From the NCBI GenBank assembly GCA_001972305.1, contig BDDD01002679.1, positions 96,945 to 160,944 on the forward strand: DNA of 64,000 nucleotides, given 5' to 3'. This DNA comes from Cephalotus follicularis (Eukaryota; Streptophyta; Magnoliopsida; Oxalidales; Cephalotaceae). Below are positions 5,411-59,312 of this stretch, in pieces (positions within the stretch are counted from its first letter, which is position 1; each line of letters starts with the position of its first letter). The translations under genes were made by a program, and so were the position numbers. A model generated the notes under the pieces. That model did not search any database, had not been told where the DNA came from, and saw nothing but the letters and a program-made list of their open reading frames with translations.

Positions 5411-5540
5411 GGCAGCCGATTACCTTGGGGAAGCAGTCGACTGGACCCTGTGGAAGGGACCAGTTGCCTGTTGCATGAGGCAGCCGGCTGGATAGTGTCG
5501 GTGGGGACAGCCGACTGCCAGGTCTGGGCAGTCGACTGTC
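5411..5540. repeat. Palindrome cluster 1 (CAGTCGACTG type), element 1 LTR
   Basis: The exact palindrome CAGTCGACTG lies at 5434-5443 and 5529-5538, CAGCCGGCTG (also a perfect palindrome) at 5481-5490, and one-base variants at 5412 and 5508. The cluster begins about 145 bases into the LTR and ends ~110 bases before the TATA-like box, so it lies in the probable promoter (U3). Confidence 0.9.
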
Positions 5541-6087
5541 GATAGGTCTGGCAGCATAACGTGCGTGCCAGACTGTTGGTGGAAAAAGGGGGTGTATTTT
5601 GTTTTAATGCGGGCAGAGAAAGGAGAAGAGAGAGAGGTCGGTATTCTCCATAAAAATGTGTCTTCTCTCCTTCAATCTTCACCAATCATACCGAGAGGAG
5701 AAGAAAGTTCAACTGTGTGAAGGAGAAAGGAGAGGAGGTGTGTGTATTGTATTCCAAAAGCTTTGTGTTGGGCTGTGTTGGGGAGCTTGGACCAGTGACC
5801 AGAGGATCCGGATTTGTTGGAGTTGCTGGATGAATTCGGAGCCTTGGAAACTTGGATTGGAACTCAAAGAGGTGGATTGAAATTCCTAACTTGGAATTCT
5901 AAGGTAGGGGTAAATCTCATAATCGTGGTTTAAGTTTTGTTATAATGGACGTAATGGGTGAAATGCATGCTATGAACCGTGTTATGAGCATAAATGTATG
6001 TTGTTGTTGTTGAATCCTCGTATTTGAATGGATTGAAGTGTGGATGATGTGCATTTTAACTGCTGTTTTTGCCTACTGGTGTAAATC

Positions 6088-6440
6088 CAGTCGACTGCCA
6101 TGGCGGGCAGCTGACTGGAGGGCTAGAACAGCCAGTTGTCCAGTGCGAACAGCCGGCTACTCAACGGGAACCAGCCGACTGGGTGTATGAACCAGTCGAC
6201 TGTTCATACGTTAGATAGAACACATCTGCAGGAGGTTGTGTAGTCGACTTCCAAGAAAGGGCAGCCGACTGGATAAGGAAGGCAGTCGACTGCCAAGAAA
6301 AGGCAGCCGACTGGATAAGGAAGGCAGTCAACTGCCAAGAAAGGGCAGTCGACTGGATGAAGTAGTAGCCGACTACCAGGACTAGGACAGCCAACTGTCG
6401 AAGGCGAACAGCCGACTGTCAGGAGAGACAGCCGACTGGA
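6088..6440. repeat. Palindrome cluster 2 (CAGTCGACTG type), element 1 LTR
   Basis: About fifteen copies of CAG(T/C)CGACTG or close variants occur in 350 bases, exact at 6088, 6193, 6283 and 6346. Part is a tandem array with a 42-base period (units start at 6262 and 6304, each holding a CAGCCGACTG and a CAGTCGACTG or one-base variant). It lies downstream of the donor-like site at 5904. Confidence 0.9.
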
Positions 6441-6760
6441 TAGGGACTGACCCGCATACTTGAGCATATCCTTGCATTGCATTCTGATATGAATTGAATT
6501 GGTGATTGAAATGTGATTGAATTCTAAGGTGTTTTATCATTTTAGAAGTGCATACATGATTATATACAATCATTATTTGAAACGAAAACATATATTTTGA
6601 TAAACGTGTGTTTTCAAAGGATTGAAACGTGGTTTTTAAAGATGGATTACATTTTGAAAAATGTAATATTTTCAGTATTTTACAACTTATAAACTACTTG
6701 GAAACGGTTGGTTTTGGATTGACCTTGGATTGATTGATTGAAGTTTGTGATTGGATTGAG

Positions 6761-6952
6761 GCTGTGCTAGTTCCGTGACGGAGGTGTCATGTGGACTAGG
6801 GGCGGGATTGTGCGCCTAGGGGCCAGGAGTTGGCTAGGGACACCCACACTGATCGGATTGATGCTGCGCTAGTTCCGCGACGAAGGTGTCATGCGGACTA
6901 GGGGCGGGTTTTGTGCGCCTAGGAGCCAGGAGATGGCTAGGGACACCCACAA
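6761..6952. repeat. 102-base tandem duplication in the element 1 LTR
   Basis: GCTGTGCTAGTTCCGTGACG at 6761 returns as GCTGCGCTAGTTCCGCGACG at 6863, and both copies run to GGCTAGGGACACCCAC. The copies differ at several sites, so the duplication is not recent. Confidence 0.88.
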
Positions 6953-7591
6953 ACACTGTTTGCTTGACCTTGTGCAAGAAACAGCGGATTGATTGGATTG
7001 CCTGGATTGATGGATTGGTCCTTCGGAACGTGACTGTTGGATTAGTAATTGTGGCTACTTGGCATGGATGTGCCTTTGGTATTAATACATATACATACGT
7101 ATATATGTATTATAGTATATTATGTTTTGCATCATGGTTGCATTCATTTCATGACATTCATTATCACTAACCTTGAATTACTTTTATGATTTAGCCGAGT
7201 GAGGACAAAGGCTAACCCCCTACTATTGCAGATTGATGCAGTGACCTGGATATGGACCATGCGCGGCGAATCTGTGGGGAGATGGAGTTTTATTATTAAA
7301 TAAATGTTTTAACAATGTATTGGGACCCGTATTATTTTACATTGATGTATTGATGATGTTGATCGACTTTTGACCACGCCCCGTTAAAGGGCTTTTGACA
7401 ATGGTTCAATGATGTTAGTTGTTGGAATCGTGTGGTATGGGACACATGATTCGGGTTGTTGTTCAGCTTATTATTAAATGCTTCCGCAGTTGTTGATGGA
7501 ATCAATGTCTTTAATTTTATCGTATTTTTATAAGCTTAATATTTGTGTTAAAATGCCATGGCTTATGTTGTTAACGAAGCGGGGTGTGACA

Positions 7592-8904
7592 AATAGTTTT
7601 TCTAGTTTTTCACTACTATTATAAAAATTTGAAAAAGTTTTTTTTAATGCATCTACTTCTATTTTAAGACATCCATTTTCTTTTTCTAATATTTTTATTT
7701 TGTTTTCATCTTTATTATTAAGCATATTATTAGCCTTTTTTAAATCACTATTTTTAATATTTAAAATTTTAATTTTTTTTAAATCAGAAATAATACAACT
7801 ATATTTTTCTACTAATAAAATAATTTCATCATAAGTTACCTCATCATTTTCTTCTTCCTCTTCCTCGATAGCCATTAGTGCTAATTGAGCTACTTCTTCA
7901 GGGGATTCCTCATCGGAGCTCGATTCATCACTATCATCCCATGTGGCAAGCATAACTTTCTTTTTCTTAAACTGCTCCTTTTTTAGTCTCGGACAATCAT
8001 TCTTGTAATGCCCTGGTTTGTTACATTCGTAACAAATTATTTCTTTAATTTTGCTTGACTCGCCTTTTTGAGTGTTACCTTTCCTGAATGGTTTTCTTCC
8101 AAACTTCTTTTTGCTTTCAAGAAACTTTTTGAATTTTCTCGTGATCAACGCCAGCTCTTGATCACTTTCCTTGTCAGTTTCTTCATTAGATGTAGATTTT
8201 AAAGCTATCACTTTTTTCTTTTTCCTTTCTGTTTCTTCTTCATCGTCTCTTTTTAATATCGACAATTCATGTGTCATTAAGGATCCGAGAAGATCCTCCA
8301 GAGGCAGAGCATTAAGATCTCTAGCTTCCTCGATAGCTGTCACTTTAGGCATCCACATTCTTGGTAAACATCTGAGAATTTTTCTTACCATGTCACTATT
8401 AGTATAAACTTTATCTAGAGCTTGTAGAGCATTAGTGATAGTAGTAAATCTAGTAAACATAGTCTTAATATCCTCATTATCATGCATAGTAAACATTTCA
8501 TATTCATGAACAAGCATATTTATTCTTGCCTCTTTTACTTGATTAGCACCTTCATGTGTTACCTCAAGTCTATCCCACATTTCTTTGGCAGACACACAAG
8601 AAGATACCCTATTAAACTCATTAGAATTAATAGCACATATTATGATATGTTTGGCTTTTGCATTCATTTGAACCTTTTCCCTATCTTCATCATTGTACCT
8701 TGTTCTTGGTTTAGGTACTTTTTCACCATTTTCATTAATGGTGGTAGGCAAGTCAGGACCATCAACAATTAAATCCCATAAATTATAATCTAAAGACTGA
8801 ATAAAAATAGTCATTTTTGCTTTCCAATGACTGTAATTGTTACCATCAAAGAAAGGAGGTTTTGAAATATTTTGGCTTTCACTAACATTCAAGTTCATGG
8901 CCAT
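7592..8904 (-). pseudogene. gag: gag of SIRE-like copia element 1, cut off by Tekay element 1
   Basis: Nucleocapsid gene of a Ty1/copia SIRE-clade element. ATG at 8904 is preferred because the longer frame to 8928 opens with GTG. A UBN2-type gag domain comes first (KPPFFDGNNYSHWKAKM, then AKEMWDRLEVTHEG, then MLVHEYEMF). Next is a Lys-rich stretch, one CCHC zinc knuckle at about residue 290 (CYECNKPGHYKNDC), an acidic stretch and a probable coiled coil. The frame is open over the ~437 visible codons. It ends where the Tekay LTR begins (7591/7592), so the C-terminus and pol should lie on the far side of Tekay element 1, before base 1. Confidence 0.92.
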
Positions 8905-8950
8905 TTTTGATCTTTTAATCTCTAACACTTAAGAATAATGAGATTACCTT

Positions 8951-8962
8951 CTCTGATACCAA
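8951..8962 (-). other. Primer binding site of SIRE element 1
   Basis: The minus strand reads TTGGTATCAGAG directly after the LTR end GTAGTTTTTCA. It matches the initiator tRNA-Met 3' end and lies ~47 bases before the gag ATG. Confidence 0.9.
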
Positions 8963-9476
8963 TTGAAAAACTACAAGAGGGGGGTGAATTGTAGACTTTA
9001 TATAAATTATGAACTTTTTCGAAAAATTAGCCAAAATAAAAATTAAACAAACAATTCAAAATAACAATTATATTAAAACAATTATACCAACAATATAAAG
9101 AGACAGGGAAGAAGAATACAAACCCAGTTTTATAGTGATTCTGCTTAATCTCTTGCCTACGTCCACTTTTCTCAAGGACCTCCTTGAGTTTCCACTAGTA
9201 CTCGACCTCGAATACAAAACTTCGAATAACTTCCAGGAACTATTCGGTGCACCTTTACAATAGTTGTGATTGCTCTCAATCACATACACAATAGTTGAAC
9301 AAATACAAAGGTGGGTGATTTTTGTGCAACCTCTCAAAGGTTAGATGTTGACTAAATATGCTCACAATAATAGCTTAACAAGACAAAAAGAACTCAAGAA
9401 TGATGTTAACAAATGTAAGGATAATTGATTTGTAACTTGATACTCCATTTGTTGTTCTTGAGCCCCTTTTTATAGT

Positions 9477-9484
9477 GTTTTTGG
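9477..9484 (-). promoter_or_regulatory. TATA box in the SIRE element 1 LTR
   Basis: The minus strand reads CACTATAAAAAGGGGCTC. This is a canonical plant TATA box about 545 bases into the LTR, with the palindrome cluster 110-430 bases upstream of it. Confidence 0.75.
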
Positions 9485-9589
9485 TGATATGGCCGTTGTG
9501 ACATGTCTTGTAGCCGTTAGACCTGTTTTGGAAAATTTGTCCTTAATTTGTGCGTTGATAAGGTATCGTCTGACTGTAATTCCCGATCA

Positions 9590-9910
9590 AAGCGTCGCCA
9601 GTTTCAATATAAGCGTCGACGCTTAATAGTCATTGTTAGGCTTAATTTTCCATCTCTTTGTGCAACTGCTGCCGCTGGAATATAAATGTTACCGCTTTGA
9701 AATTAAAACGCTGACATTGTAAATTTGAGTGCTGATAACGCTTTGTACATAAAACTGCTGGCGCTTTGTGTTGAAACTGTCGCCACTTTCAATTTGAGAG
9801 CTGACGCTTTGTGCAATTAGTGTCTTCGACATTTTCATAGCAATTTTTTGACGCTTTCAACCTCACAAGCCCAGAAGCGCTGACGCTTTTAAATTAATTA
9901 TCGACGCTTT
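9590..9910. repeat. Palindrome cluster (AAGCGTCGACGCTT type), SIRE element 1 LTR
   Basis: A perfect 14-base palindrome lies at 9611-9624. About ten half or degenerate sites follow (GCGTCGCC, CTGACGCTTT, TCGACGCTTTG, GCGCTGACGCTTTT). The cluster lies 116-436 bases from the LTR start, upstream of the TATA box. Confidence 0.88.
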
Positions 9911-10026
9911 GTCTAGTTAATCTGATGTTTATCTGATATGTCTTCTTGATCATCTTGCAAAAATCAAACTCATTAGTTGCAAATGTATTATCATCAAAAT
10001 TAGGAATTGAGACATAAATGTCAACA

Positions 10027-10063
10027 GGTTTCATAAACATATCACACTGACTTTTTTCCAAAC
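10027..10063. other. 37-base remnant between two elements
   Basis: An A+T-rich spacer between the SIRE LTR start and the next Tekay LTR start. It is likely a piece of the site the SIRE element entered. It is too short to identify. Confidence 0.5.
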
Positions 10064-10165
10064 TGTAACGCCCGGGATTTTCATTTATGTGTAATATTGC
10101 TTTTCCAATGAAATTTTACACCTTGTGTTAATGAGAATCGTGTTTTCCCTCTTTCCCGTGTTGAA

Positions 10166-12475
10166 ATGTTGCAAGAAAGTGAGTTATTGTGTGTTTTTCG
10201 TGCAGGGGCAGCCGGCTGCCGTGAGGAGGCAGCCGACTGGTGGGAGTGTCGGCAGAAACAGCCGACTGCCAAGCCAAGGCACGGCTTTTCTGCTAGAGTG
10301 TTGATGGACTCGGGAGCCTCTCATTCATTTATTGCTTCCCACTTTGCATTATGTTTAGATATGTTTCCTGATTGCATGCCCTATGTTCTTGATGTGAGTA
10401 CACCCACTGGGGGTTCCATGTGTACAGATTCGGTGTATAGAAGTTGCAAGATTTCTATAGCAGGTGTTACGGTGTATGCAGATTTGATTGTATTGCCCAT
10501 ACATGATTTCGATGTCATTTTGGGTATGGACTGGTTGTCAGCTTATCGTGCATGCATGGATTGTTATAACAAGACGATGGATTTTTGCTTACCTGATGGA
10601 ACTGCTGTACAGTTCAAGGGAAGCAAAGGGTTCTCGACACCGATCATATCTTTCATTCGGGCATCGAGGTACCTTGAGAAGGGATGCGAAGGATTCCTGG
10701 CGCATGTGGTGGACAAGAGAAAGGAGGGAGGCAAGAGTCTGGAGGAGGTTCCGGTCGTGAATGAGTTTTCAGATGTGTTTCCTGCAGACTTGGTGTCTTT
10801 ACCCCCGAGGAGGAGCATGGAGTTTGTGATTGACTTAGTACCAGGTACGGCTCCTATTTCTAAGGCGCCTTACCGGATGGCTCCCGCAGAACTGAGGGAG
10901 TTAAAGTTGCAGTTGCAAGACCTAATTGATAAGGGTTTTGTGCGGCCCAGTGTTTCTCCATGGGGTGCGCCTGTGTTGTTTGTGAAAAAGAAAGATGGGT
11001 CGATGAGACTTTGCATCGACTACAGGATATTGAATAAAGCCACTATCAAGAATAAGTATCCTCTTCCTCATATTGAAGATTTGTTTGACCAGTTACAGGG
11101 GTCAAGGGTGTTCTCTAAACTCGATTTGAAGTCGGGTTATCACCAGCTGAGAGTGAGGGAAGGAGATATTGAGAAGACTGCCTTCCGGACTAGGTATGGT
11201 CATTATGAGTTCTTGGTAATGCCGTTTGGTGTCACCAATGCACCGGCAGCATTTATGTCGCTGATGAATGATGTGTTCAGACCGTACCTGGATCAGTTTG
11301 TGGTGATGTTTATTGATGACATTCTGGTATACTCAAGGGATGAGGAGGAACATGCCTATCATCTGAGATTGGTGTTGCAGATTCTCAGAGAGCATCGGTT
11401 GTATGCTAAGTTTGGCAAGTGCGAGTTTTGGCTCGATCATGTGATTTTTCTTGGTCACATAGTATCGGGAGAAGGTTTGGCGGTGGATCCGTCGAAGACA
11501 GTGGTGGTGCAAGATTGGCCACGACCCGGGAATGTGACTGAGGTGCGCAGTTTTCTTGGGTTAGCAGGTTATTATCGGAGGTTTATTCAGAACTTCTCAA
11601 GGATAGCCGCACCCCTGACAAAGCTTACTCAGAAAAAGACTTTATTTATCTGGGATGATGAGTGTGAAGCCAGTTTCTGTGATCTGAAGGATCGGTTGGT
11701 TTCTGCTCCTGTTTTGGCGTTACCTGAGGGTAACGAGGGCTTCGCAATTTATAGTGATGCTTCGGGTAAGGGACTGGGTTGCGTGTTGATGCAACGAGGC
11801 CGTGTGATCGCTTATACTTCGCGGAAGCTAAAGACGTATGAGGAGAACTACCCGACGCATGATCTTGAGTTGGCCGCGATTATTTTTGCTCTTCAGAAAT
11901 GGAGACATTATTTATATGGGGCACAGTTTGAAATTTTCACTGACCACAAGAGCTTGAAATATCTTTTCTGTCAAGATACATTGAACATAAGACAGCGGCG
12001 ATGGGTTGAGTTCTTTAATGATTATGACTGTAGTATTCAGTACCATCCCGGAAAAGCGAATGTGGTCGCGGATGCTTTGAGCCGCAAGGCTATGGTTGCC
12101 AGTGCGATGGTGTCGCAATGGAAGATGTTAGAAGACTTCCAAGAATGGTCTCCATTCAATCAGTCACCAGGGATCTTTCTAGCTGATATGCGGGTGGAGC
12201 CGACGTTGTTACACCACATCAGAGACGCACAACTCAATGACCCTGAATTGCAGCGGATTCGAGAGAATCTCGATTCAGAGTCTGGTTTTAGAGTACATGA
12301 TGATGGTATTATGAGATATCGGGGACGGGTGTGTCTTCCGAATGAACCGGGGGTGAAGGATGAGCTACTCCGCGGGGCTCATAAATCCCAGTACAGCATT
12401 CATCCCGGTAGTACAAAGATGTATCAAGACATGAAGAAGACTTACTGGTGGAATACAATGTTACCTGACACATAG
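10166..12475 (+). CDS. pol: Chimeric LTR::protease-RT-RNase H reading frame
   Basis: This is the longest intact frame in the window, 769 codons. The first ~38 residues are translated from LTR sequence, including the palindrome cluster. From there it enters protease ([13 protein letters not shown], about residues 46-58). RT follows with [20 protein letters not shown] and catalytic FIDDILVYS (about residue 390). RNase H is [13 protein letters not shown] to [11 protein letters not shown]. The start of the integrase finger ([14 protein letters not shown]) ends in seven LTR-encoded residues and TAG. No stop or shift interrupts it, unlike every other pol here. Protease, RT and RNase H active residues look intact. 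Whether it is transcribed or translated cannot be seen. Confidence 0.72.
10206..10270. repeat. Palindrome cluster (CAGCCGACTG type), element 2 LTR
   Basis: GCAGCCGGCTGC (a perfect palindrome) is followed by CAGCCGACTG twice within 65 bases, 142-206 bases from the LTR start. That is the same place as cluster 1 of element 1. Confidence 0.85.
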
Positions 12476-12765: not shown

Positions 12766-13494
12766 ATCATAAGTGCATTCATTTCATGACATTCGTTATT
12801 ACTAACCTTGAGTTACAGTTATGGTTTAGCCGAGTGAGGACAAAGGCTAACCCCCTACTGTTACAGACTGATTTTCAGGTTGACGCGGCGGACGGGCACC
12901 GTCGAGCTCCGTGGAGCGGATAGAGCTTTATGTTGCATTTATTTGTTTATGTTAAACATAAATGTTGTATCAGAACATGTTGTAATTCCGGATTACTATT
13001 TTGATAATGTTGATCGAATTTTGATCACGCACAGTTTAAGGGCTTTTGACATGATGTTGGTTGTAGGAATCGTGTGGTATGGGACCACGATTCTGTTGTT
13101 GTTCAGCTTATTTTATAAATGCTTCCGCAGTTGTTGATGGAATCAATGTTTTTAATTTTATTGTATTCTTTTATAAGCTGAATATTTGTGTTAATTTGCC
13201 ATGACTTATGTTGTTAAGGAAGCGGGGTGTGACATGAAATACTTACAATAAGTACATGGAATACTGAAAGTACTTACAAATTGGTTGTCGGAGTTTATGC
13301 CGGAATGATTACAATACTTGAATACTAGAAAACGGTTACAACTCAAGTGTTTACACTTAGGCTCTATGTATACATCTAGAGAAGGTATGATTCTAATGGG
13401 ATTTTGGTTTGGAGAATGGTCTAGAGGTTGAGAGAATTCTTCAATGGCTTGAACTTGTGAAGAAAAACCTTTTGAATGAATGAAGAAGGTCTTG

Positions 13495-15994: not shown

Positions 15995-17109
15995 TGTCAC
16001 ACCCCGATTTCCACATGACATGCATATATGGTGATATCGGATATAAATAATAATCCAACATTCAATCGTTAAACAACATTCATAAATAAGCGGAAGCATT
16101 CAAAAAGCCGGATTATAAGGTTATCCGCATGCAGCCCATACTACGTGCTTGTACATAATACATAACAATCATCCTTTTATAGATAGGAAAAGTAAAACGA
16201 CAACAACAAAGTGTGAGCGTTCATTTCAACACAAAACATCGTAAATAAAAACCTTAACAAAATAGAAGCTGTCCAAAAGCTTCAGTAGCACTTTCCGAAC
16301 GCCTTTGCTTAATCTGAAATTTGTAGGGGGTTAGCCGTTGTCCTCACTTGGCTAAGTAGGAAATAATGCATGATAAAGAATATATAAATGTCAACATGTA
16401 TGATAGTTTATTTGAAATGGTATATATAAATAAGAATTCCTATATATATGAGCAATCATGCCAAGTGGCCATAGACAATACAATTCAAGAATACCGCACA
16501 ATGGTACAATCAATCAATACAGTGGTTTGGGTGTCACATGTCGCTAAGGCGTAGCACCAACTGTGCACCACCTAACTATCACGCTACACTCTGAAGATGA
16601 TAGTCAAGTCAATTCTGCCGGCAATTAGCGGGCAGGTAACAGTCAGGATCTGCATTGCAGATAAGTGTGGTGGAAGCTTTAGCCAACTCCTGGTACCTAG
16701 GTCCACCCCGTAGCCAGTGATGTCTCCTATCACTCGACTAACGGCAATAATATAGACAATCAATTCAATGACAATATTACATATACCTATAAGATGCAAT
16801 ATAGCGGTAGTTTTCATTTTTAGAAGACATAACAATTCATTCAGTGGTTCTCTTGGAGAACTAAACGATAACAATACCTCTTGTAAAAGGAAATAGCAAT
16901 TTGTATAACAATAAGATTTTCTGTCTGAAATCCGTTACTAAAAATCATTATTTGTGCTTAAAGCATTAAGTTGGTATGATCCTTGAAATTTATATAAAAC
17001 AGTAGTAGTTACTTAATAAACAGTAATGACAGCAATATATAGATTGCTTAACAGTATAACAGTTCAAGGATATTCACAACCACAACCAATTCAATCAATT
17101 AATTAAGCA

Positions 17110-17285
17110 CTTCCACAATTACTATTCTAAAGCATCGACAGTTCTATTTAAGCTTCGATGGTTGTAGATTAAGCGTTGACACTGGACACACTATCAAAGC
17201 GTAAAGCGTCGAAATTCTAAGCCTTACAATGCGATATTTACACACCAAGGCGTCAACTGTTTGAACCTAAGCGTCGGCGCCTCTG
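17110..17285. repeat. Palindrome cluster 2 (GCGTCGACG type), element 3 3' LTR
   Basis: Sites include AGCATCGACAG, AAGCTTCGATGG, AAGCGTTGACAC, AAAGCGTCGAAAT, AGGCGTCAACTG and AAGCGTCGGCGCC, all variants of one TCGA-centred palindrome. The cluster is downstream of the splice-donor site at 17795 in transcription sense. Confidence 0.85.
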
Positions 17286-17789
17286 GCATTCTTACAAATT
17301 TCCAAGAGCAACAACAAAACAGAGCATGCATAACTTCATTTCAATCTCAGTCCAAATCAACATGTAGTCAAATATCATCCATCACTACACATTATACATG
17401 TTATATGTTCAAAAACATGTCAAAACCCCTACCTCAAATGCTATCCTGGAATAAAATTGAGTTGATTCCTCTCTTTGAGTTCCAAGTTATTCAACCTTCA
17501 ACTAAACTCGCAATTTTCAGCAATTACTCTATATAATTGCATGTTTATAGGTTTAGTTACCAAAACTAGTAAGTTTAACTAGTTATCAAACCATGATAAC
17601 ATCAAGAATCGAAGCAGAAGCTTATAATCAATTTTCTATGTTCCGTTTCCATTTCCTATCTAAATCCCAAAATTGAACCTCTAATCCCAGGATAATTATT
17701 CATAATTGTTTGTTAACAATGGATATGTGGTGCTAACATCAGGGTTCTATATTACTAACGACCTTAACAACATCAAGAAATTTCGGATT

Positions 17790-17798
17790 ACTTACCAA
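17790..17798 (-). promoter_or_regulatory. Splice-donor-like site in element 3 LTR
   Basis: The minus strand reads TTG|GTAAGT, the plant 5' splice consensus. It is ~140 bases downstream of the TATA-like box. The other LTR copy reads TTG|GTAACG (25017-25025). Equivalent sites occur in most Tekay-type LTRs of the window. Confidence 0.55.
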
Positions 17799-18199
17799 TT
17801 CCAGGTGATGTTCCAAGTTCAACTTGAACTTCAAGCTCCTTCAACCTCTAGCAATTCCTCCAGCAATTGTCCAGATTGTCTCTCTATTCCTTAGTGTTTT
17901 CTAACGCTCAATCAGCTCGTATATCAGCTGATATAAAGGCTCAAATTCGTGTCTTAATGTCATTAGTTAGACTAACTTTATTGTGGACATTTCTCTCTCC
18001 TTCATGCATGCCTTCACTCTTGGTTTCTTTCTTACTTTTTTGCTGTGATTGTAGGTTGCAGGTGTGCAGGATGGGGAGCACATGCAAGGCACTTAGTCAG
18101 GCTTTCCTTTGCATGGTTGCCACGTCCCTGGACACTTGGCTTATGAGGAAATGATTCTGACGCCATTGTCCTGTTCTAATAGACGTGTATCACAGTACT

Positions 18200-18345
18200 G
18201 ACACCGTGCAAAGCGTCGACAGTTTCTCTCTGGCGTCGACGGTTGGTGCGTTAAGACTCAACCTTTAACTGCACGCCCTGTCCACGTGTCTATGCTCAAA
18301 GCGTCGACGGTATGGCGTTAGGCGTCGATGGTATAGCACCAGAAC
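18200..18345. repeat. Palindrome cluster 1 (GCGTCGACG type), element 3 3' LTR
   Basis: AAAGCGTCGACAG, GGCGTCGACGG, AAAGCGTCGACGG and GGCGTCGATGG occur in 145 bases, about 135-280 bases from the LTR start and upstream of the TATA-like box. The core CGTCGACG is a perfect palindrome. Confidence 0.87.
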
Positions 18346-18478
18346 TTATTCTTTGCTTTTCATTTAAGAATTTCTTCCAATTTCATTCTATTCAAAATAT
18401 AACCCACCATAAAATCTCAAAATGCATAATTTATCCATCGTTGTACAATATACATTAATTGAAATTGCGGTTATTACA

Positions 18479-23211: not shown

Positions 23212-24354
23212 GCTGTCACACCCCGATTTCCACATGACATGCATATATGGTGATATCATATATAAATAATAATCCAGCATTCAATCGTTAAACAACATTC
23301 ATAAATAAGCGAAAGCATTCCAAAAGCCGGATTATAAGGTTTTCCGCACGCAGCCCATACTACGTGCTTGAACATAATACATAAAAATCATCCTTTTACA
23401 GATAGGAAAAGCAAAATGACAACAACGGAGTGTGAGCGTTCATTTCAACACAAAACATCGTAAATAACAACCTTAACAAAATAGAAGCTCTCTAAAAGCT
23501 TCAACAGCACTTTCCGAACGCCTTTGCTTAATCTGAAAATTGTAGGGGTTAGCCGTTGTCCTCACTTGGCTAAGTAGGAAATAATGCATTATAAATAATA
23601 TATAAATGTAAACATGTATGATAGTTTATTTGAAATGGTATATATAAATAAGTATTCCAATATATGTGAGCAATCATGCCAAGTGGCCATAGACAATAGA
23701 ATTCAAGAATACCGCACAAGGGTACAATCAATCAATACAGTGGTTTGGGTGTCACATGTCGCTAACTCCTAGCACCAACTGTGCACCACCTATCTATCAC
23801 CCTACTCTCCGAAGATGATAGTCAGGTCAATTCTGCCGGAAATTAGCGGGCAGGTAACAGTCAGGATCTGCATTGCAGATAAGTGTGGTGGAAGCTCTAG
23901 CCAACTCCTAGCACCTAGGACCACTCCTTAGCCAGTGATGTCTCCTATCACTCGACTAACGAAAATAACATAGACAATCAATTCAATCAATTCAATGACA
24001 ATATTACATATACCTACAACATGCAATATAGCGGTAGTTTTCATTTTTAGAAAACATGACAATTCATTCAGTGGTTCTCTTGGAGAACTAAATGATAACA
24101 ATACCTCTTGTAAAAGGAAATAGCAATTTGTATAACAATAAGATTTTCTGTCTGAAATTCGTTATTAAAAATCATTATTTGTGCTTAAAGCATTAAGTTG
24201 ATATGATCCTTAAAATTTATATAAAACAGTAGTAGTTACTTAATAAACAGTAATGGCAGCAATACATAGATTGCTTAACAATATAACAGTTCAAGGATAT
24301 TCACAACCACAACCAATTCAATCAATCAAGCAAGCACTTCCACAATTACTATTC

Positions 24355-24500
24355 TAAAGCATCGACAGTTCTATTTAAGCGTCGACGGTTGTAGATTAAG
24401 CGTTGACACTGGACACACTATCAAAGTGTAAAGCGTCGACATTCTAAGCCTTACAATGCGATATTTACACACCAAAGCGTCGACTGTTTGAACCTAAGCG
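24355..24500. repeat. Palindrome cluster 2, element 3 5' LTR
   Basis: AGCATCGACAG, AAGCGTCGACGG, AAGCGTTGACAC, AAAGCGTCGACAT, AAAGCGTCGACTG and AAGCGTCAGCGC. Three sites keep GTCGAC that is mutated in the 3' LTR copy, so this copy is nearer the ancestral palindromes. Confidence 0.86.
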
Positions 24501-25436
24501 TCAGCGCTTCTGGCGTTCTTACAAATTTCCAGGAGCAACAACAAAACAAAGCATGCATAACTTCATTTCAATCTCAGTCGAAATCAACATGCAATCAAAT
24601 ATCATCCATCACTACACATTATACATGTTATATGTTCAAAAACATGTCAAAACCCCTACCTCAAATGCTATCCCGGAATCAAATTGAGTTGATTCCTCTC
24701 TTTCAGTTCCAAGTTCTTCAACCTCCAACTCAACTCCCAATTTGCAGCAATTACTCTATATAGTTGCATGTTTATAGGTTTAGTTACCAAAACCAGTAAG
24801 TTTAAGTAGTTATCTAACCATGATAACATCAAAAATCGAATCAGAAACTTATAATCAATTTTCTAAGTTCCGTTTCCATTTCCTATCTAAATCCCAAAAT
24901 TCAACCTCTAATCCCAGGATTATTATTCATAATTGTTTGTTAACAATGGATATGTGGTGCTAACATCAGGGCGCTATATTACTAACGACCTTAACAATAT
25001 CAAGAAATTTCTGATTCGTTACCAATTCCAGGTGATGTTCCAAGTTCAACTTGAACTTCAAGCTCCTTCAACCTCTAGCAATTCTTCCAGCAATTGTCTA
25101 GATTGTCTCTCTATTCCTCGGTGTTTTCTAACGCTCAATCAGCTCGTATATCAGTTGATATAAAGGCTCAAATTTGTGTCTTAATTTCATTAGTTAGACT
25201 AACTTTATTATGGACATTTCTCTCCCCTTCATGCATGCCTTCACTCTTTGTTTCTTTCTTACTTTTCTGCTGTGATTGTAGGTTGCAGGTGTGCAGGGAT
25301 GGGGAGCACATGCAAGGCACTTAGTCAGGCTTTCCTTTGCATGGTTGCCACGTCCCTGGACACTTGGCTTGTGAGGAAACCATTCTGACGCCACTGTCCT
25401 ATTCTAACAGACACGTATCACACTCCTAACACCGTG

Positions 25437-25565
25437 CAGAGCGTCTACAGTTTCTCTCAGGCGTTGACGGTTTATGCATCAAGACTCAGCATTCAACTGC
25501 ATGCCCTGTCCACGTGTCTATGCTCAAAGCGTCAATGGTATGGCATTAGGCGTCGACAGTTTAGC
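25437..25565. repeat. Palindrome cluster 1, element 3 5' LTR
   Basis: GAGCGTCTACAG, AGGCGTTGACGG, AAAGCGTCAATGG and AGGCGTCGACAG lie 130-260 bases from the LTR start. It is more decayed than the other LTR copy. Confidence 0.8.
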
Positions 25566-25700
25566 ACCATAACTTATTCTTTGCTTTTCATTTAAGAAAT
25601 TCTTCCAATTTCATGCTAACCCAACATAAAATCTCAAAATGCATATTTTATTCATCGTTGTGCAATATACATTAATTGAAATTGCGGTTATTACAATAAG

Positions 25701-46469: not shown

Positions 46470-46474
46470 TTTAG

Positions 46475-49114: not shown

Positions 49115-51643
49115 TGTAACACCCCTCATCCGGAGGATGGACACGTGGCATTACTCTCAATCCAATATACAATACAATGGTCGGGACTAGCAATATAAAA
49201 ATACGAAAAACTGAAAACTTTATAAAACATGTCATTGTGCGGAAGATACAATACAATTTTCCATCCCTGCGATACCATACAATACTGTTCAGTTACAATA
49301 CTATGCCAGTCATTTCTTTTCAATACAATACATTTCAATACAATACTCGTCGGTACATTTACAATCCAAGCTCAATCACATCAAACGATCATGCGGTCGC
49401 ACCGAATCTTCAATCCTTCTGTTCGCTGCTACCTGCTGCCCTACCTATGCCTCACATAAAAAGTACAACACAGCCCCACCCCGAAGGATGGGGTTAGCCA
49501 CAAGGCTAAGCAGAAACCCCATGCAACATGTATGCATGTACAACGCGCAATATTGGTGACAGTCTATGCAACATAAATGTGCGGTGTACAATATAAATGC
49601 ATGATATGGCAAATGCATGAATACAATTGGCGATCTGACTATCTGTATGACACTGGCCCATAACATAGCATATGGATAGGATCTATAATAATCTATCAAT
49701 GGCAAACACTCAATGGTGGTGTATCAAACACCCAATCAAACAATCATATCCTATAGAGCAAGCGACCTCGGGCCAGTACAATGTCAATCAATAGTAATGA
49801 TCAATCCCACGGAAGGTAGTCCTTCGAAAAGGGTGGGAGGTCTATCTACTGTTCTCAGACTGATTAGGTCTAGAACTCGTAGATCTTCCAGCCTATGGCT
49901 GGGTCAATACAATATCCATGAGCTACAACCATGGGGGAGCTACTATACCATTAGGGAGCTATGGAACTCTGAGAGCGTCAATCGTCAGTCAGTAACAATA
50001 TCGATGTGCTACAGCCATGGGGGAGCTACTTAACCGTTAGGGAGCTATGGCTCTCAGGGAGCATCAATCGTCAATCAATAACAGTACTGCTCGTCAACAG
50101 ATTAATACAATAAATGACACGATCGATGAAATAGGTGGACATGGTCAATAGCCTAACATGCCGATACGGGTCATAAGGTCGCTCTATAGGATCCATACAA
50201 TACAATCAATCAACCTGTCAGTACAATGCCAATAAGTGCTGATGTCTAATGGAGAAATGGGAATATGCGTCGAACGTTCCAAACTTAGACTCACAACACT
50301 TATGGCTCAATCAATCAACCAGTTAGTAGCCAATAGACGGTGACAATCGAATCAACGAGATAAGAAGAAGTATCTATCTGGTTGGTGAAAGTCACTGGAT
50401 CGTTGCCTATAGCTCAAGCTGTCACCCTATCAATTTATCAATTCAATCTTTGAAAACTATAGAAAACTGTGTTTCAAACGCTTGAATACCTCAAGTGAGG
50501 CTCCGGTCAAGCGGCAATGTGAAAATGAGATGAAAACTAGCTTTAAAACAGTTAAAAGTTCCATTCAGCCTGATAGGCATCGATGTCCTTGGCCAAAGAC
50601 ATCGATGCATATCAGGTTATTCCTTTAAACGGTGTAAGGACATCAACGTCTTTGAAAGACATCGATGTCTTTCTCTATTTGTATAAAACTGTGGCCAAAG
50701 ACGTCGATATCCATGGACAAAGACGTCGACGCGATTCAATAAAAACAGCTTGGGAATGCGCATCGATGTTCAGCATCGATGTCTTCTATGGGGAGAAGAC
50801 ATCTCTAGGCAAAGACGTCGATGTCTTTCAAATACATCGATGTCTTTTCTGTGGAATCAAGGATACTGCACTCTAAAGTGAAAGTCATCGATGTCCATGG
50901 GCTAGGGATCGATGTCTTTGCTTGGCATGGTCGAATTTTGTGCAGAAAACCAGCAAATCTCAAGTCAAAATCCATTTAAAACTCATTCTTTGAAAACCAA
51001 GGGTTAAAATCAGTCTTTTAAGGTTAGTAAAACTTGGTACAACCTTCCAATATCAGTTTCAAACTTCCTAGATCAGCTAGATCAAGGGAATTAATAAAAA
51101 CCCTAGTTCCACAATTCAATACAATACAATCATTCAATCAATGATGCAATTCAATCAATCATCAATTAAGAAATAGGCAATACAAGTAGAGAAGTCCTAC
51201 CTATAACGAAGCTTTGACCGTTGAGTTTCCAATCAAGTAATCCGCTGAAATCACCCAAGAATCAGTTGCTATGTTGTTCAATCCGCAAGAAAGAGACTTG
51301 CAATCATTATGTGCCGTTGGAGCAGCAAATATGGAGCTGCAAGGGGAGAGGGAGGCTACCGGCTGGGAGAGAGAGGAGGAGAAGGATAGAGAGAGGGAGA
51401 AGAATGGGAAAAGTGAGAATGAGAGCAAAATGGCAAGAGAATTGACTTATATAGTTAATTCAGCCGATTCTCCAAAACTCAGCCCAAAATCTCGACTATA
51501 CATGCATATAATCAATACAATTACAATACGTATAGGAATACCTCAATTCAATACAGTACAATACAGTTCAATACGGTACAATATGATACAGTATATGCAT
51601 GAACCGTGTTCAACAGTACGGAAAGAGAATTTGGGTCGTTACA
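49115..51643 (-). mobile_element. Solo LTR with CATCGATG palindromes, TSD CCTAA
   Basis: 2529 bases. Minus strand from TGTAACGACCCAAATTC to GGGGTGTTACA, flanked by CCTAA at 49110-49114 and 51644-51648. It holds a TATA-like CTATATAAG (near 51450), a GAGA-rich leader, a donor-like ATAG|GTAGGA (near 51200) and a palindrome cluster (50579-50925). It lies within the EPRV movement-protein region. No coding region is supported. Confidence 0.93.
50579..50925. repeat. Palindrome cluster (AAAGACATCGATGTCTTT type)
   Basis: A perfect 18-base palindrome lies at 50655-50672. More than ten related sites occur in ~350 bases: GACATCGATGC, GACGTCGATAT, AGACGTCGACGCG, GCATCGATGT (twice), GACGTCGATGTC and TCATCGATGTCC. 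All are centred on TCGA. The cluster lies downstream of the donor-like site in transcription sense. Confidence 0.9.
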
Positions 51644-52044: not shown

Positions 52045-52403
52045 TGTAACACTCCGTGTTATATTTTTGGGTATGCAATTTATGTGTGCATGTCTTGTAT
52101 AATAATTATGGACTTTTGGTGATTCATTTACGGTATGCATTAGTTTATTTGGACTTTATTGATTTGGAGTATAAAGTATACCCATTTTTTTAAAATCCAA
52201 CCCTTTAAATGTAATGACTTCGATTTTTCAATTAATGTATATTGCTCCAATTTTTAAATAAAATATACATTTTAATTGAGATTACTTGTCCAATTATCAA
52301 ATAATTGTCATTAGTGAATGCTTGGGTTGAATTGAGATACAAATTGGTAAAACAAACTTAAGGAACCTAAAATCAGCTCAAACAGCTGACTGTCACAGTG
52401 TAA

Positions 52404-52462
52404 CAGTCGACTGGTTGATGCGTGGAGTGGACAGTCGACTGCCAAGTAAATACAGTCGACTG
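52404..52462. repeat. Palindrome cluster 1 (CAGTCGACTG x3)
   Basis: Exact CAGTCGACTG at 52404, 52432 and 52453, 195-253 bases from the LTR start and ~265 bases before the TATA-like box. Confidence 0.92.
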
Positions 52463-52856
52463 GAACGGCACAGAACAGGTGTCTATGCATGCGAGTGAGA
52501 CAGAGCAGAGGCAGTGCATGATGGACAGGTGTTATGCGAGTCAGCAGCTGCCATAACATGCAAGAGGAGTGCCTTGCATGTCCTCTATTCATTCTGCAAG
52601 ACTTGCAGACTTGCAACCTACAAAAAAACAGAAGAGAAAAGAGTGAGAAGAGGTGCATGTGAGAGAGAGAAGGAAAAGAGGAAAGGTTGAGTTAATGGGA
52701 ACCTAACAAGTTCTAAGGCTCCTAAGCCTTTATATCAGGTGTTATAATAGAATGTGAATGCTAGAAAACACTGAGGATAGAGGAGATCTTGCTGGAGAAT
52801 TGTTAGAGCTTGCATGTTGGAAGATGGAGTTCAAAGGGAGTGAAGCTTGAATCTTC

Positions 52857-52865
52857 TTGGTAAGT
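52857..52865 (+). promoter_or_regulatory. Splice-donor-like site
   Basis: CTTG|GTAAGT lies ~130 bases after the TATA-like box. It is the equivalent of 17795 in element 3. Confidence 0.55.
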
Positions 52866-53365
52866 CCCCAATCCGAGCTCACTACTGATGTTGAGGTTGT
52901 TAATGATGTAACTAGGAGGATGTTAGCTATATATATATATATATCTTATGTTAACATGATTAAGGTTAATAAGTTTGGAATTGAAATAGAATTAGTAAAG
53001 GGTTCAAAGAAGAAGTTGGAACTAAGAACTAATAATGATAAGCTACTGTTGGAACTGGTAATTGACTAGGTAATTATTTAAATGTACTGGTTAAATGTCT
53101 GAACCTTCGAGCATGCATTGTTATAGATCAATTCTGCTGAGATTGGAAGGTTACGTGGTGAAAGAGCTTTGGACATTAAAGAGAGAAATCAATCCAAATT
53201 GATTTCAGGATAGCGTTTAAGGTAGGGATAATGACATGTTTTCGAAGATATAATGTGAATATCATGTGTGGATGATTTCCTGTTTGATTGCATATGTTGT
53301 TGAGTTAGTATTTTGGACATTGAATATGTATGCCCTGTTACTGCCTGCCTATTTCTGGGCAAAGT

Positions 53366-53480
53366 AGTCGACTGTTCTTCATGACAGTCGACTACTCAAT
53401 CAAACCAGTCGACTGTTAAGAGCAAACAGTCGACTACTGAATCAAAACAACCGACTGTTCTTGGGGACAGTCGACTGTCC
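53366..53480. repeat. Palindrome cluster 2 (CAGTCGACTG type)
   Basis: TAGTCGACTG, CAGTCGACTA, CAGTCGACTG (53406), CAGTCGACTA, CAACCGACTG and CAGTCGACTG (53468) occur in 115 bases, ~500 bases after the donor-like site. Confidence 0.9.
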
Positions 53481-56154
53481 TGAGATAAATTTCTGATATA
53501 GGCACTGTTTGGACCCTAAATTGAATGTAATTACCCTGACCTCCATATGGGATGATTAGAACAGTCAGTCCTGGCCTTATATAATTACATTTCAGAAATT
53601 AAACAACGTATGCACTCCTTGTGAAAGTTGTGCAAGAATGACTATGGTATGCTAATGACCTTATTGAATCCTTGAATTGCTATTGTGCCTTATTAATCTG
53701 TTGTATATGCTACTGTTACAATTAGTACATACCAGTTGAGTGCTCATAAACACTATTGTTCCATTACTTTCAAAGGATTGAACCAACTAAGTACTATATG
53801 CACAATTAATGATTTCAACTATCATTTTCAAATGAAACCTAATGATTACTGATTTCCCTTCAATGAGAGGTACTGTTACTGTACTGAATATCGTTTTCCT
53901 CCAACGAGATGTACGATTACTGAACTGTAAATGTTTCGAAGAAAACAACTTATATTGCATACTATTGATATATGTAATATTACTACTGAATTGATTGAAT
54001 TGCTTGTCTATGTTATTGCCGTTAGTCGAGTGATAGGAGACATCACTGGCTACGGGGTGGTCCTATGTGCCAGGAATTGGCTAGAGCTTCCACCACACTT
54101 ATCTGCAATGCAGATCCTGATTGTTACCTTCTCTCTAATTGCTGGCAGAATTGACTTGATCTATCATCTTCGGAGTGTAGGGTGATAGTTAAGTGGTGCA
54201 CAGTTGGTGCTAGGAGTTAGCGACATGTGACACCCAAACCACTGTATTGATTGATTGTACCCTTGTGCGGTATTCTTGAATTGTTCTGTCTATGGCCACT
54301 TGGCATGATTTCTTATATATTGGAATACTTAAAAATGTTATTTAAAATATAAAATGTCATACATGTTGCATTTATATATTCCTTATCATGCATTATTCCA
54401 CTTAGCCAAGTGCATATGACTTTTATTTTATAATCCGGCATATGGAATGCTTCCGCTTATATATTTGAATTGTTGAATGGAATGCTGGATTATTATTTAA
54501 TTCTGATATCACCATATATGCTTGTCTGTAATGGAATTGAAAGTCAGGGTGTGACAAATTTTTCTTCTTATAATTTAGGTCCAAATTCATTCATCAAGGC
54601 CTAGCCCATTATTCTCCAAGTCGTCATTATTCTAGCAATTCTCTACTTATACATAACAATATTTGTTAGTCTTTTGGGTCTTCAATTAGTCTTGTGCTGC
54701 CAAAATAATGACCCAATTAAGGCCTAAATTAATTGTTTTCTTTAGACGAATCCCATCCCCCCCCCGGCCTATACAAGCTTCTCCAACACTCTAGAGCTCT
54801 CCACCCGTTGGTTTGTATAGGAAGCCGACATAGTGCATTTCGGTTTAACACTTCTCTTCTCCCTTGAGCGCCGTGACTCTCTCTTCCTGCAAGCTCAATT
54901 ATTTCCACCCGTTGGCATATATTGGTAGGCATCATAGTGATTTTTGGTTAGCATTTCTTTTCTTCTCTTTAGCACCGTGACGCATTGCTCTCTCTTCAAA
55001 GCTTAAGTTCTTCAACAATTTTCTCCAAGTTCAAGTTTATAACTATATCCTTCCTCACCTTTCTAGAGATTGGTAAGTTCTTCTAACCTTATTGTTAGAA
55101 GTAAGTAATTTAATTGTTGTTTTTCATGAAGCATTCGGGTTGCTGAATTGAGCATGAGGTTGGAGGTTTATCTTCTCATTATTGACAGTTTGTTCATGTA
55201 ATTTGGAGTATGTTAATTTAGTTAGATTGTGTTTTCTTTCTCTTTAAATTTCAGCTGCTGTAAGGTTATAAGAAGGTTGAGTATTTCTATGTGTTAAAAG
55301 GTGTTGAGTTGGTGTTAGTGAATGGAGGTTTATTTGATAATATATATTGCTGCCTATAAGAAATTTTCGGTTATATAGGTGTTGTAGGTAAGTAATTTAT
55401 TTAATGAAATTTATTCAATGAAATTTATGGTATATTGAATGATAATGTATGGTGAAGTTTTGGCCAGGCTAAGGAATTCACAGATTTTGTTATTGTATGT
55501 ATGGACTTGGTGGTATAGAGGTAAATAAAAAGGATGGTATATCCTTTTATTGTTCATTGTGAGCAAGAACGGGATGCATGTTATGAAATATAAGGAAATT
55601 TTTATTGTGTATATCTAGTGGATAATGAAACAAAAACCTGTCTTATGAGGAGAGATTATGATAGGATTTGTTGTAAGTGTTAAGGATAGAAAAGAATCGA
55701 GTAATGAGGACATCTAAAAGCATAAAGTAAATCTCACATGCATTTTACACATTCCATATGCATAATCTTTTAAAAAAATGAGATTAATGATGAGTCTCTA
55801 ATGCGATGACATTGTAGGCGTGGATCCCGTAACTAATCCAGATTCTCGAGGGACTAGTCCGCGATAGCCGATTCAGTAAATCTGTGAGTGAGACATTCCC
55901 TTCCTTTATTTTACTTTGAGATTCCTGTTTATTACATGTGCCCTATTGTTTGCTTTATATCATGAGTTCGGTCGGGATTTGTATACCCGGTACGTCTTTG
56001 GTAATTTATATTTCTTGGCTTGATATGATTTTGAGTAAATAAGACCCTAATTCTAGGTGATTAGTTCACCTTCTTACATTGTGTTACATTGTGATTTTGC
56101 TGTGATACTTGCTTTCTACTCTGATGCGGGTACTTTGTGACTTATCATTCATGT

Positions 56155-57636: not shown

Positions 57637-58064
57637 CATAAACTTGTTTCAATGGCTCCAATTAAAGAATCATCAAAGTTTAAATGTCTGGCATCACGGA
57701 GACATGCTAAGACAGAATTGTTTAATCCTTGTCTTGTTAATTGCTTAATTGTTACTTGAACTAAAACAAAGTGAATTTATTTAAAGTTTTTAGCTAATTC
57801 TTTAATGGTTTTCTTACTTAATAATTGAATATTTTGTTGAGTTTTGGTAATTTTTATAGTTTGTTTAATTGTTTGAATTCTTTCAGTGAAATTGAATGGG
57901 TTAAAAGGATTATACTTATAAATTTCTTTGTTTGAAATCTTTGGAGGTTTCCAATTTTGCCATTGTTTTATTCTTTCATCTAATTCTTCATCTCTATTTG
58001 AATTATTACTAGTTTCTAAACCACTGTATGATCTCGAAGATATAGCCCTACAAACTTTATTCAT
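57637..58064 (-). pseudogene. Pararetroviral movement protein, N-terminal part (piece A)
   Basis: ATG at 58064 in good context, ~236 bases after the PBS. About 95 codons are open to a TAA at 57777, then the frame continues with the conserved block (KQLTRQGLNNS, then ACLRDARHLNF) up to the B3 insertion. This is the movement-protein core of Caulimoviridae and, with its place next to the leader, marks the start of the viral coding region. Confidence 0.82.
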
Positions 58065-58299
58065 TATTAATGATTTTAAAGTTTTGTTTCACTACGTCCA
58101 AAGTATACTGTCCCCCCTAGCTAGCGTAATATCTTTCGATGGTCTAAACGGGACTTACTCTCCTTCTGCCATTTCCACCCCAACAACCTACTGCTAGGAT
58201 ATGAACTATTCGGGAACTTAATCAACCGGCACCCTACCCAGACGTGTAGAAGCTAGACTTTAAATTCAGTTAATAATTCATAATTGCATCGAGTTTTTT

Positions 58300-58311
58300 G
58301 CTCTGATACCA
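58300..58311 (-). other. Pararetroviral primer binding site
   Basis: The minus strand reads TGGTATCAGAGC, the tRNA-Met site that primes minus-strand DNA synthesis in Caulimoviridae. It lies between the leader and the movement-protein start, as expected. Confidence 0.85.
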
Positions 58312-58925
58312 TTTCAAGAACGGAAGCTATTAATATTCTAATGGAGATAAAATACTAGGTGAAGTATAAAAGAACAGTAAAATTAAGAAAGGTAGAAAAA
58401 TGAAAGCAATTGAATGGCTGAGTAATTGAAATATATGTAAATAAAATACTGAATTTAAATGACTGAAATAAAAGATAATATACATTGAAAATATAATACT
58501 GAAGAAGTTAAATGGAAAAGGTTCCACGTTAAATGGATACCTTTGAATACTTGTAAATAAAACAGTTGATATGAAAAATATACCACACTATCTAGCGGTA
58601 ATTCGCCTGATAGATGGATCTTTTCAATACTGAAAATGAGTTTAAATAAATAAAAGTTTAAGGTACCACTCTATTTGGCGGATGAACCGACCATGTTGAT
58701 GGATCTTAAACAACAGTTAAATAATAAAATAAATAACTTTCTCCACTCTTAAATATTTTAAGAGTGGGAAATTATTTCTAAACCTCTTCATTAACATGGT
58801 CTGGAAATTTTATGACTTGTATTCATAATTTTATCAAGACGGAGTGGGTATCAATTGAAATAACTGGCTCAACGTTAATTGCATCGAGTTTTAGGGAACG
58901 AAAGCTATTAATATTCTAAGCATTT
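58312..58925 (-). other. Pararetroviral leader with hairpin and direct repeat
   Basis: About 600 A+T-rich bases without a usable frame, which fits the long leader of Caulimoviridae pregenomic RNA. A perfect inverted repeat lies at 58743-58767 (CCACTCTTAAA, loop TAT, TTTAAGAGTGG). TAATTGCATCGAGTTTT and a following GAACG..AAGCTATTAATATTCTAA occur at 58281-58341 and again at 58876-58919. Only the first copy contains the PBS. Confidence 0.65.
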
Positions 58926-59036
58926 TGTTGACTTTTAGTCTCAATCATAAGTTTTAATGATTACAAATTTGCATTTAACTTTACTACTTTCTGTGTAAGA
59001 AAAGAAATAAACAAAATAAAGAAGTGCAGAAACAGG

Positions 59037-59312
59037 ACAAAGCGCCGATGGTCACATTCAAAGCGTCAGCGGTTTGGTCCAAGGCGTCAACGCCTGAGAA
59101 GAGTGTATCTGCCGTTAAAACCAGTGAAGTGCAAAATCAGTTGAAGCACTCAAAGCGGCGACGCTTAGGAGTAAAGCGTCAGCGCTCTATGGCGAAGAGT
59201 CGACACTGAGAACAAAGTGCCGACAGACAAAGCGAGAAAATTCAAATTTAACTCATAACGGCAACCTAAGCGCGGACGCTTTAGGCAATACCGTCGACGC
59301 TTTGGACGACTG
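59037..59312. repeat. Palindrome cluster (AAAGCGTCGACGCTTT type), SIRE element 2 LTR
   Basis: AAAGCGCCGATGG, AAAGCGTCAGCGG, AAGGCGTCAACGCC, AAAGCGGCGACGCTT, AAAGCGTCAGCGCT, AAGCGCGGACGCTTT and ACCGTCGACGCTTT. About eight units, 111-387 bases from the LTR start, ~105 bases before the TATA box. Confidence 0.87.

Follow-up and report, generated by a model that had tools for sequence, protein, structure and literature searches.

TCGA-centred palindromic words form arrays in copia SIRE-type and gypsy chromovirus LTRs of Cephalotus follicularis

Why do long terminal repeats (LTRs) of two unrelated retrotransposon superfamilies carry clusters of the same palindromes? The question is raised by a stretch of 64,000 nucleotides from Cephalotus follicularis (GenBank assembly GCA_001972305.1, contig BDDD01002679.1, positions 96,945 to 160,944 of the forward strand), the whole of which is called the window here and is crowded with nested LTR retrotransposons. 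An earlier note on this DNA had described TCGA-centred palindrome clusters in twelve intervals, within copia LTRs of the SIRE type as well as gypsy LTRs, and knew of no standard LTR element that would explain them. This last statement has to be corrected, since published work describes repeated palindromic motifs ahead of the TATA box as a feature of Sireviruses (Bousios et al. 2010, PMC2829016). The passages of that paper on the motif describe it as palindromic, present in at least eight copies per element, which cluster in the LTR on the upstream side of the TATA box. It has a CGG-CCG core except in Tnd-1, is called Sirevirus-specific and is lacking in the classic copia elements used for comparison. 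TCGA forms the centre of two of the 13 published motifs, namely those of Vitis (CGGTCGACCG) and Tnd-1 (ACAATCGATTGT).

The arrays of Cephalotus are runs of dyad-symmetric sites of 10–18 bp that belong to few word types. The same words are found both in copia LTRs of the SIRE type and in chromovirus LTRs of gypsy, and different words fill the arrays of LTRs that are alike elsewhere. Occurrence of the same words in both superfamilies, together with array replacement, suggests that the elements exploit the same host DNA-binding protein.

Results

Three word types with a TCGA centre were found: CAG-TCGA-CTG, (A)AGCG-TCGA-CGCT(T) and AAAGACA-TCGA-TGTCTTT, referred to as CAG, GCG and GACA words according to their arms. 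Their copies were counted in the assembly (1.58 Gb), with the same word read backwards as control. CAGTCGACTG (CAG) occurs 197,377 times compared to 939 times backwards, GCGTCGACGC (GCG) 73,186 times compared to 121, and GACATCGATGTC (GACA) 18,133 times compared to 39, which amounts to about 289,000 exact copies for the three words together. A sample of the assembly, made up of 20 pieces with 10 kb each (about 191 kb without N; contigs hand-picked by number before their sequence was seen), was evaluated against a third-order Markov model. There, CAGTCGACTG was counted 32 times with 0.17 expected (8 of the 20 pieces) and GCGTCGACGC 12 times with 0.03 expected (4 of the 20). Among the 1024 palindromic 10-mers only these two and the AT repeats ATATATATAT and TATATATATA exceed six sample copies; four more palindromes among the 40 most frequent reach 16–34 times the expectation, each on two copies. 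Arms matched around TCGA 59 times in the sample, compared to 12.3 from the marginals (4.8-fold), and 15 times compared to 4.0 in the window. Among the other non-AT centres of the sample, CCGG came closest with 8 compared to 3.5 (2.3-fold). The matching of arms around TCGA is owed for the most part to CAGTCGACTG and GCGTCGACGC: the remaining 62 TCGA palindromes sum to 15 in the sample, with about nine expected for all 64, which rules out a general preference for TCGA. The half-symmetric CAGCCGACTG with its CCGA centre is as common as CAGTCGACTG (47 and 43 copies in sample plus window), so that a C in one of the half-sites may be tolerated as well.

These counts narrow the class of TCGA-centred palindromes proposed in the earlier note: the arrays are real, and the excess is due to three specific words. 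CAGTCGACTG, announced there with at least 11 copies in the window, has exactly 11, all of them within the cited intervals. A strict palindrome, defined by at least four of five matched arm positions around TCGA, is present in seven of the twelve intervals. None was found in 10206–10270, 17110–17285, 18200–18345, 25437–25565 and 59037–59312, where the arrays are degraded; the first of these lacks TCGA altogether. The expected enrichment over shuffled LTRs was obtained for most of the elements listed in Table 1. With three strict sites in the LTR of E1, five in R52 and three in R50, each count was reached in none of 300 dinucleotide shuffles, and the two sites of the SIRE1 LTR, one of which is another word, were reached in one of 300. 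It was not obtained for element A, in which degradation of the palindromes is strongest and the strict counts of the two LTRs (zero and one) were reached in 300 and 23 of the 300 shuffles. Since the clusters at 17110 and 24355, as well as those at 18200 and 25437, lie in the two LTRs of this one element, they are not independent.

The words differ in the elements that carry them. All CAG arms that could be assigned lie in gypsy chromoviruses, GCG arms in chromoviruses and copia SIRE-type elements, and GACA arms in chromoviruses and one SIRE-type group. Within the window the LTRs of E1 and R52 hold CAG words, those of SIRE1 and S59 GCG words. The SIRE-type assignment is provisional and based on a copia gag, the Met primer-binding site (PBS) and the gag of the GCG locus L068, which is 79% identical to the copia gag of the window. 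For the gypsy side, the label Tekay is the earlier reader's assignment from architecture (LTRs of 2.3–2.5 kb). A chromodomain was located behind the integrase and next to an array-bearing LTR in E1, as a weak match in 4673–5218 (E 1.9e-4; 21.7 bits, below the cut-off of 25.1), and in L061, a relative of R50, with 55% identity to the chromodomain open reading frame (ORF) of E1. In L061 the same LTR pair flanks integrase and chromodomain, which are 58% and 55% identical to those of E1 in a rearranged interior, and the GACA word therefore belongs to a chromovirus. All six further GACA loci L070–L075, taken from among the first places listed for GACATCGATGTC, match the R50 LTR, and the same word was found in the SIRE-type LTRs L081/L096, L095/L097 and L017.

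Among nine fetched GCG loci, L060 and L062 adjoin a chromovirus pol and L067 is of the chromovirus type by LTR match, in addition to the SIRE-type L068. The sample contributed a GCG array behind a chromovirus pol in L012 and a degraded one in L027; L024, in which GCG sites adjoin a copia element without clear LTR ends, was excluded from the word table. CAG arrays lie within chromovirus LTR matches in four of the eight CAG-bearing sample pieces (L015, L016, L017 and L019). The array of L026 is located about 2.5 kb from such a match, and L018, L020 and L023 are outside the assigned CAG pieces. Among the few copia LTRs seen, none was found to hold a CAG array. The arrays are largely word-pure: 37 of 40 clusters in window and sample (at least two sites, gaps up to 250 bp) hold one word class. 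The three mixed ones are L017:9580, L027:2030 and 9876–10505 of the window, the last of which spans separate elements.

Words are replaced between LTRs that are otherwise alike. The LTRs of element A (GCG) and R52 (CAG) align, with gaps, from the TG start to the CA end, have a TATA-like region in common and include a block of 483 bp with 87% identity. Each has two arrays at matching places of the alignment, with different words. Three blocks of 74–79% connect the LTRs of E1 (CAG) and L067 (GCG). For the SIRE type, the promoter-U5 half of S59 was used as query; 40 copies including that of the window were scored, and the U3 side was fetched for 20 of the 39 others. GCG arrays are kept by 17 of these 20, whereas L081 and L095, 91–93% alike in the promoter-U5 half, have an unrelated U3 with 7–8 GACA sites; in L088, for which only 109 of 471 columns align, none of the words is present. 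Identity between L096, with its 13 GACA-like sites at up to three mismatches, and S59 is 0.17–0.48 at 601–1200 and rises to 0.83–1.00 at 1201–1680. In L096 and L097 the array region is at background identity, enclosed by a block of 45 nt (93–96%) and about 600 nt at 90–92%. Just upstream of 1200, L096 resembles L017 at 0.85–0.98, and the GACA-type U3 of the swapped SIRE-type copies is that of L017 (96% over 125 nt). The change in the SIRE-type LTRs is a replacement of a module next to the TATA box, for which template switching between co-packaged RNAs would be the simplest route.

With the same words located in copia SIRE-type and gypsy LTRs, the sharing reported in the earlier note was confirmed, as was the lack of other similarity between them: in the comparisons run, SIRE-type and chromovirus LTRs showed nothing past E 1e-8 save 35 nt of GACA array. 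On the basis of these comparisons, one shared LTR fragment behind both superfamilies was rejected. The exchange of arrays considered there is borne out within SIRE-type LTRs, where the array is replaced between conserved blocks. Between copia and gypsy it is only hinted at by the GACA arrays. The likeness of L081 to L075 beyond the words was reached in none of 60 shuffles and that to L061 in one of 60, while that to L072 was reached in all 60.

The sites follow each other at similar distances. Considering neighbour steps of up to 75 bp, 62 of 92 steps in CAG arrays fall at 19–22 bp, as do 32 of 64 for GCG and 28 of 65 for GACA (18 of these at 19 bp). The nine boxes of S59, found at up to four mismatches from a 12-letter word, are separated by 21, 21, 71, 21, 21, 20, 53 and 21 bp, and the sites of L096 by 22, 49, 22, 48, 21, 21, 20, 61, 52, 20, 83 and 20 bp. 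Comparison of 22 GCG sites from SIRE-type elements and 50 from chromoviruses gave much the same symmetrised site. Off-word variants, ACCGTCGACGCTTT as well as ACCG-TCGA-CGCTTT beside AAGCG-TCGA-CGCTT, are common to both superfamilies, as expected of one binding specificity. In the SIRE-type LTRs S59 and SIRE1 the array is located upstream of a TATA-like box; this is likely also the position of the first array of A and R52 relative to their TATA-like region, and the second array of both lies downstream of it.

The coordinates of the elements and arrays are compiled in Table 1. Further Pfam matches in the window are gypsy domains with chromodomain-type ends at 1471–5218 and 28931–31870 and a copia gag with zinc knuckle at 7531–8928 (minus strand). 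Copies of the E1 LTR end were located at 1–169, 7424–7592 and 13066–13234. Between the LTRs of element A, Pfam found gag, protease, RNaseH and integrase domains and no chromodomain.

Table 1. Array-bearing LTRs and their arrays (window positions).
Feature	Position	Strand	Remarks
3' LTR of chromovirus E1 (TGTAACGCCCGG ... CGGGGTGTGACA)	5267..7591	+	after SH3_Tf2-1 and Chromo match in ORF ending at 5218; ends read from sequence
E1, first CAG-word array	5411..5540		2 exact CAGTCGACTG
E1, second CAG-word array	6088..6440		4 exact CAGTCGACTG and CAGCCGACTG variants; 10 sites at up to 1 mismatch
SIRE1, 5' LTR of copia SIRE-type element, start approximate	8968..10063	-	copia gag, PBS at 8950 (-) with 1 mismatch, polyC-rich end
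GCG-word array of SIRE1 LTR	9590..9920		upstream of TATA-like box CTATAAAAA near 9474; 1 strict TCGA palindrome, rest degraded
Chromovirus LTR start fragment	10064..10280	+	CCGG/CCGA-centred CAG variants; 80% to 5267-5357
3' LTR of gypsy element A	15995..18478	-	LTR pair 93%; degraded GCG arrays 17110-17285 and 18200-18345; 0 strict sites
5' LTR of gypsy element A	23214..25695	-	GCG arrays 24355-24500 and 25437-25565; 1 strict site
R50, solo chromovirus LTR	49115..51643	-	CCTAA on both sides; family via L061
GACATCGATGTC-word (GACA) array of R50	50576..50917		10 sites at up to 2 mismatches; 11 TCGA and 3 strict palindromes in 50579-50925
R52, chromovirus-type LTR	52210..54556	+	homologous to A LTR
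R52, CAG-word array 1	52404..52462		3 exact; aligned to place of A array 18200-18345
R52, CAG-word array 2	53366..53480		2 exact and TAG variants; aligned to place of A array 17110-17285
S59, SIRE-type LTR, start not fixed	58934..59962	+	PBS at 59963 with 1 mismatch; 86% over 70 nt to SIRE1 LTR; relatives L068, L096, L097
GCG-word array of S59	59037..59312		9 boxes; upstream of CTATATATA near 59422; 6 of 8 steps 20-21 bp; no strict palindrome

Beside R50, a reverse transcriptase fragment (46437–46880, minus strand) and a DUF7588 ORF (48201–48809, minus strand) were found; together with CCTAA on both sides, they make the LTR appear inserted into retroelement-like sequence. The chromovirus LTR start at 10064–10280 runs directly into the protease and reverse transcriptase of another copy, and the single open frame 10112–12472 points to an internal deletion or recombination. 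In L074 (1208–1550), a chromovirus LTR of the GACA type, GCG-like sites (CGCGTCGACGTT and AGCGTCGACGTC) are interspersed and possibly represent an intermediate between words. In L063 (1456–1543 and 2188–2257) two arrays with different words stand side by side, a GCG array being located some 500 bp ahead of the point where a CAG-bearing LTR of the R52 type starts, probably owing to nested insertion. Elsewhere, the pattern CAGTCGACTG-N5..30-CAGTCGACTG was found in one viral contig and in 30 prokaryote stretches. The 150 bases inspected of the viral contig (L029:3330–3480) are palindrome-rich and contain two CAGTCGACTG words with extended arms.

Discussion

We give an about even chance to the proposal that the arrays are swappable cis-regulatory modules, either enhancers or repressors, for one or few host dimeric factors. 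A wider version, according to which copia and gypsy elements of this genome draw on one small common vocabulary of host-factor sites, keep the sites at similar distances and change their regulation by exchanging entire arrays, is put forward tentatively and falls slightly short of even. Each word would be recognised by a homodimeric DNA-binding protein of the host, which would drive, or repress, transcription of the element. The word would change by recombination during reverse transcription, when a new U3 array is joined to an old promoter-U5 half, and local duplication would subsequently enlarge the array. The superfamilies presumably share words because both exploit the same few host proteins.

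Several results weigh against this proposal. A superfamily could be assigned for only four of the nine fetched GCG loci and not for L063, L064, L065, L066 and L069, and all loci are related copies, so that their counts are not independent. In a de novo test, an array followed only three of twelve gypsy pol ends (E1, L016 and L012); degraded GCG arrays were seen in A and L027, and the other seven have none, thus arrays are optional and not essential to the elements. One LTR (L074) contains both GACA and GCG-like sites. The likeness of the GCG sites in the two superfamilies is partly a matter of selection, as they were picked at up to three mismatches. Spacers within the same array are clearly alike for GCG (5.5 of 9 positions compared to 3.1 shuffled, 4 pairs) and GACA (6.3 of 7 compared to 2.7, 9 pairs), which shows that tandem duplication contributes and that the spacing need not be functional. 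The best-fit period is 6.9 for CAG, 25.4 for GCG and 10.6 for GACA. With the spacing of about 21 bp clear and 10.5 bp not best for two of the three words, helical phasing was not accepted as proof that a protein binds; the spacing agrees with a helical period and does not demonstrate it. In 18 S59-type copies the boxes are barely more conserved than the spacers (0.952 compared to 0.937), and a stronger conservation of the boxes was dropped as not significant (permutation p 0.10).

A role of the arrays at the RNA level is considered unlikely. Here, the self-complementary sites would pair in the element RNA, either as folds for packaging or dimerisation or as small-RNA hot spots. RNAs of the arrays do fold better than dinucleotide shuffles, with z-scores of -5.07 for E1, -10.76 for R50, -2.19 for SIRE1 and -2.81 for R52, and an excess of small RNAs is reported for Sirevirus palindrome clusters in the passages on this subject (PMC10760457, PMC5311732). 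Palindromes, however, fold by construction, and a cause cannot be told from a by-product by these z-scores. Moreover, pairing would require neither identical letters in two superfamilies nor a spacing of about 21 bp.

Comparably improbable, in our estimate, is neutral minisatellite growth, in which a chance palindrome of an ancestral LTR was multiplied by slippage, gene conversion and the copy number of the elements, with words shared via old recombination. Many copies are near relatives, duplication is visible in the GCG and GACA spacers, the module swap in SIRE-type LTRs did occur, and the weak cross-superfamily likeness of GACA arrays in the comparisons with L075 and L061 would fit as well. 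L072, on the other hand, is without excess similarity. Spacers of the same CAG array are little above shuffled likeness (4.4 of 11 positions compared to 3.7 in 40 pairs; 3.8 compared to 3.6 in 10 pairs) with the sites intact, which argues against recent tandem copying, and the homologous LTRs of A and R52 keep their array places while the words differ.

We regard it as quite improbable that a host silencing factor binds the arrays, or that they are CpG-rich decoys shaped by methylation, with words turning over in an arms race. For the GCG and GACA arrays of the window and for those of R52, the ratio of observed to expected CpG is 1.0–1.7 (1.40 and 1.41 in the SIRE-type arrays of SIRE1 and S59), with the exception of 25437–25565 (0.88), compared to 0.41–0.89 in five whole LTRs, and the replacement of words in LTRs otherwise alike would agree with such a turnover. 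Against this stand ratios of 0.49 and 0.68 in the CAG arrays of E1 and of 0.64 at 10206–10270, and escape by adoption of a word already used elsewhere would be odd. Palindromes as insertion targets were rejected, because the passages of PMC6911290 on this point find only a weak preference and the arrays would stay unexplained.

The proposal of regulatory modules also has to be seen beside known systems. Like the Sirevirus motifs, the SIRE-type arrays of Cephalotus are dyad-symmetric (nine boxes in S59, 13 sites in L096), with many boxes degraded, and their clusters lie upstream of the TATA box. They differ by the lack of a CGG-CCG core, in place of which GCG-TCGA-CGC and GACA-TCGA-TGTC occur, Tnd-1 being the published exception. 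In contrast to a Sirevirus-specific motif, the same words stand beside chromovirus pol in L060, L061, L062 and L012. The cis-region of maize Sirevirus LTRs is described as containing rapidly evolving palindrome clusters that are small-RNA hot spots (work attributed to Bousios et al. 2016, as reported in PMC10760457 and PMC5311732). Palindrome clusters in the LTR are thus common to both, although the maize palindrome is another word, CACCGGACNNNGTCCGGTG. The maize passages describe no sharing with gypsy LTRs and report the same palindrome in Helitrons.

The U3 modules of Tnt1 and Retrolyc1 are tandem boxes within one copia lineage. In work attributed to Vernhettes (1998) and Araujo (2001), their U3 arrays reportedly differ between subfamilies with the other LTR parts alike. 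We know of no sharing of such modules across superfamilies. Among the literature matches listed (titles and abstract openings, few subscription journals covered), none described palindrome arrays in chromovirus LTRs or word swaps, and among those listed for AGTCGACT with retrotransposons none described chromovirus palindrome arrays. New relative to the Sirevirus literature appears to be the presence of the same words in chromoviruses and their replacement as modules.

Conclusion

If the words are binding sites, the genome of Cephalotus offers a clean natural experiment, in which unrelated elements have the same array and otherwise similar LTRs have different ones. It could then be asked whether U3 arrays set the time and place of retrotransposon activity, and whether they are bound by host factors. 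If the shared vocabulary is real, the genome would hold a very large set of sites for few host proteins. The approximately 289,000 exact copies could also titrate a transcription factor, or act as a source of regulatory sites in the neighbourhood of genes.

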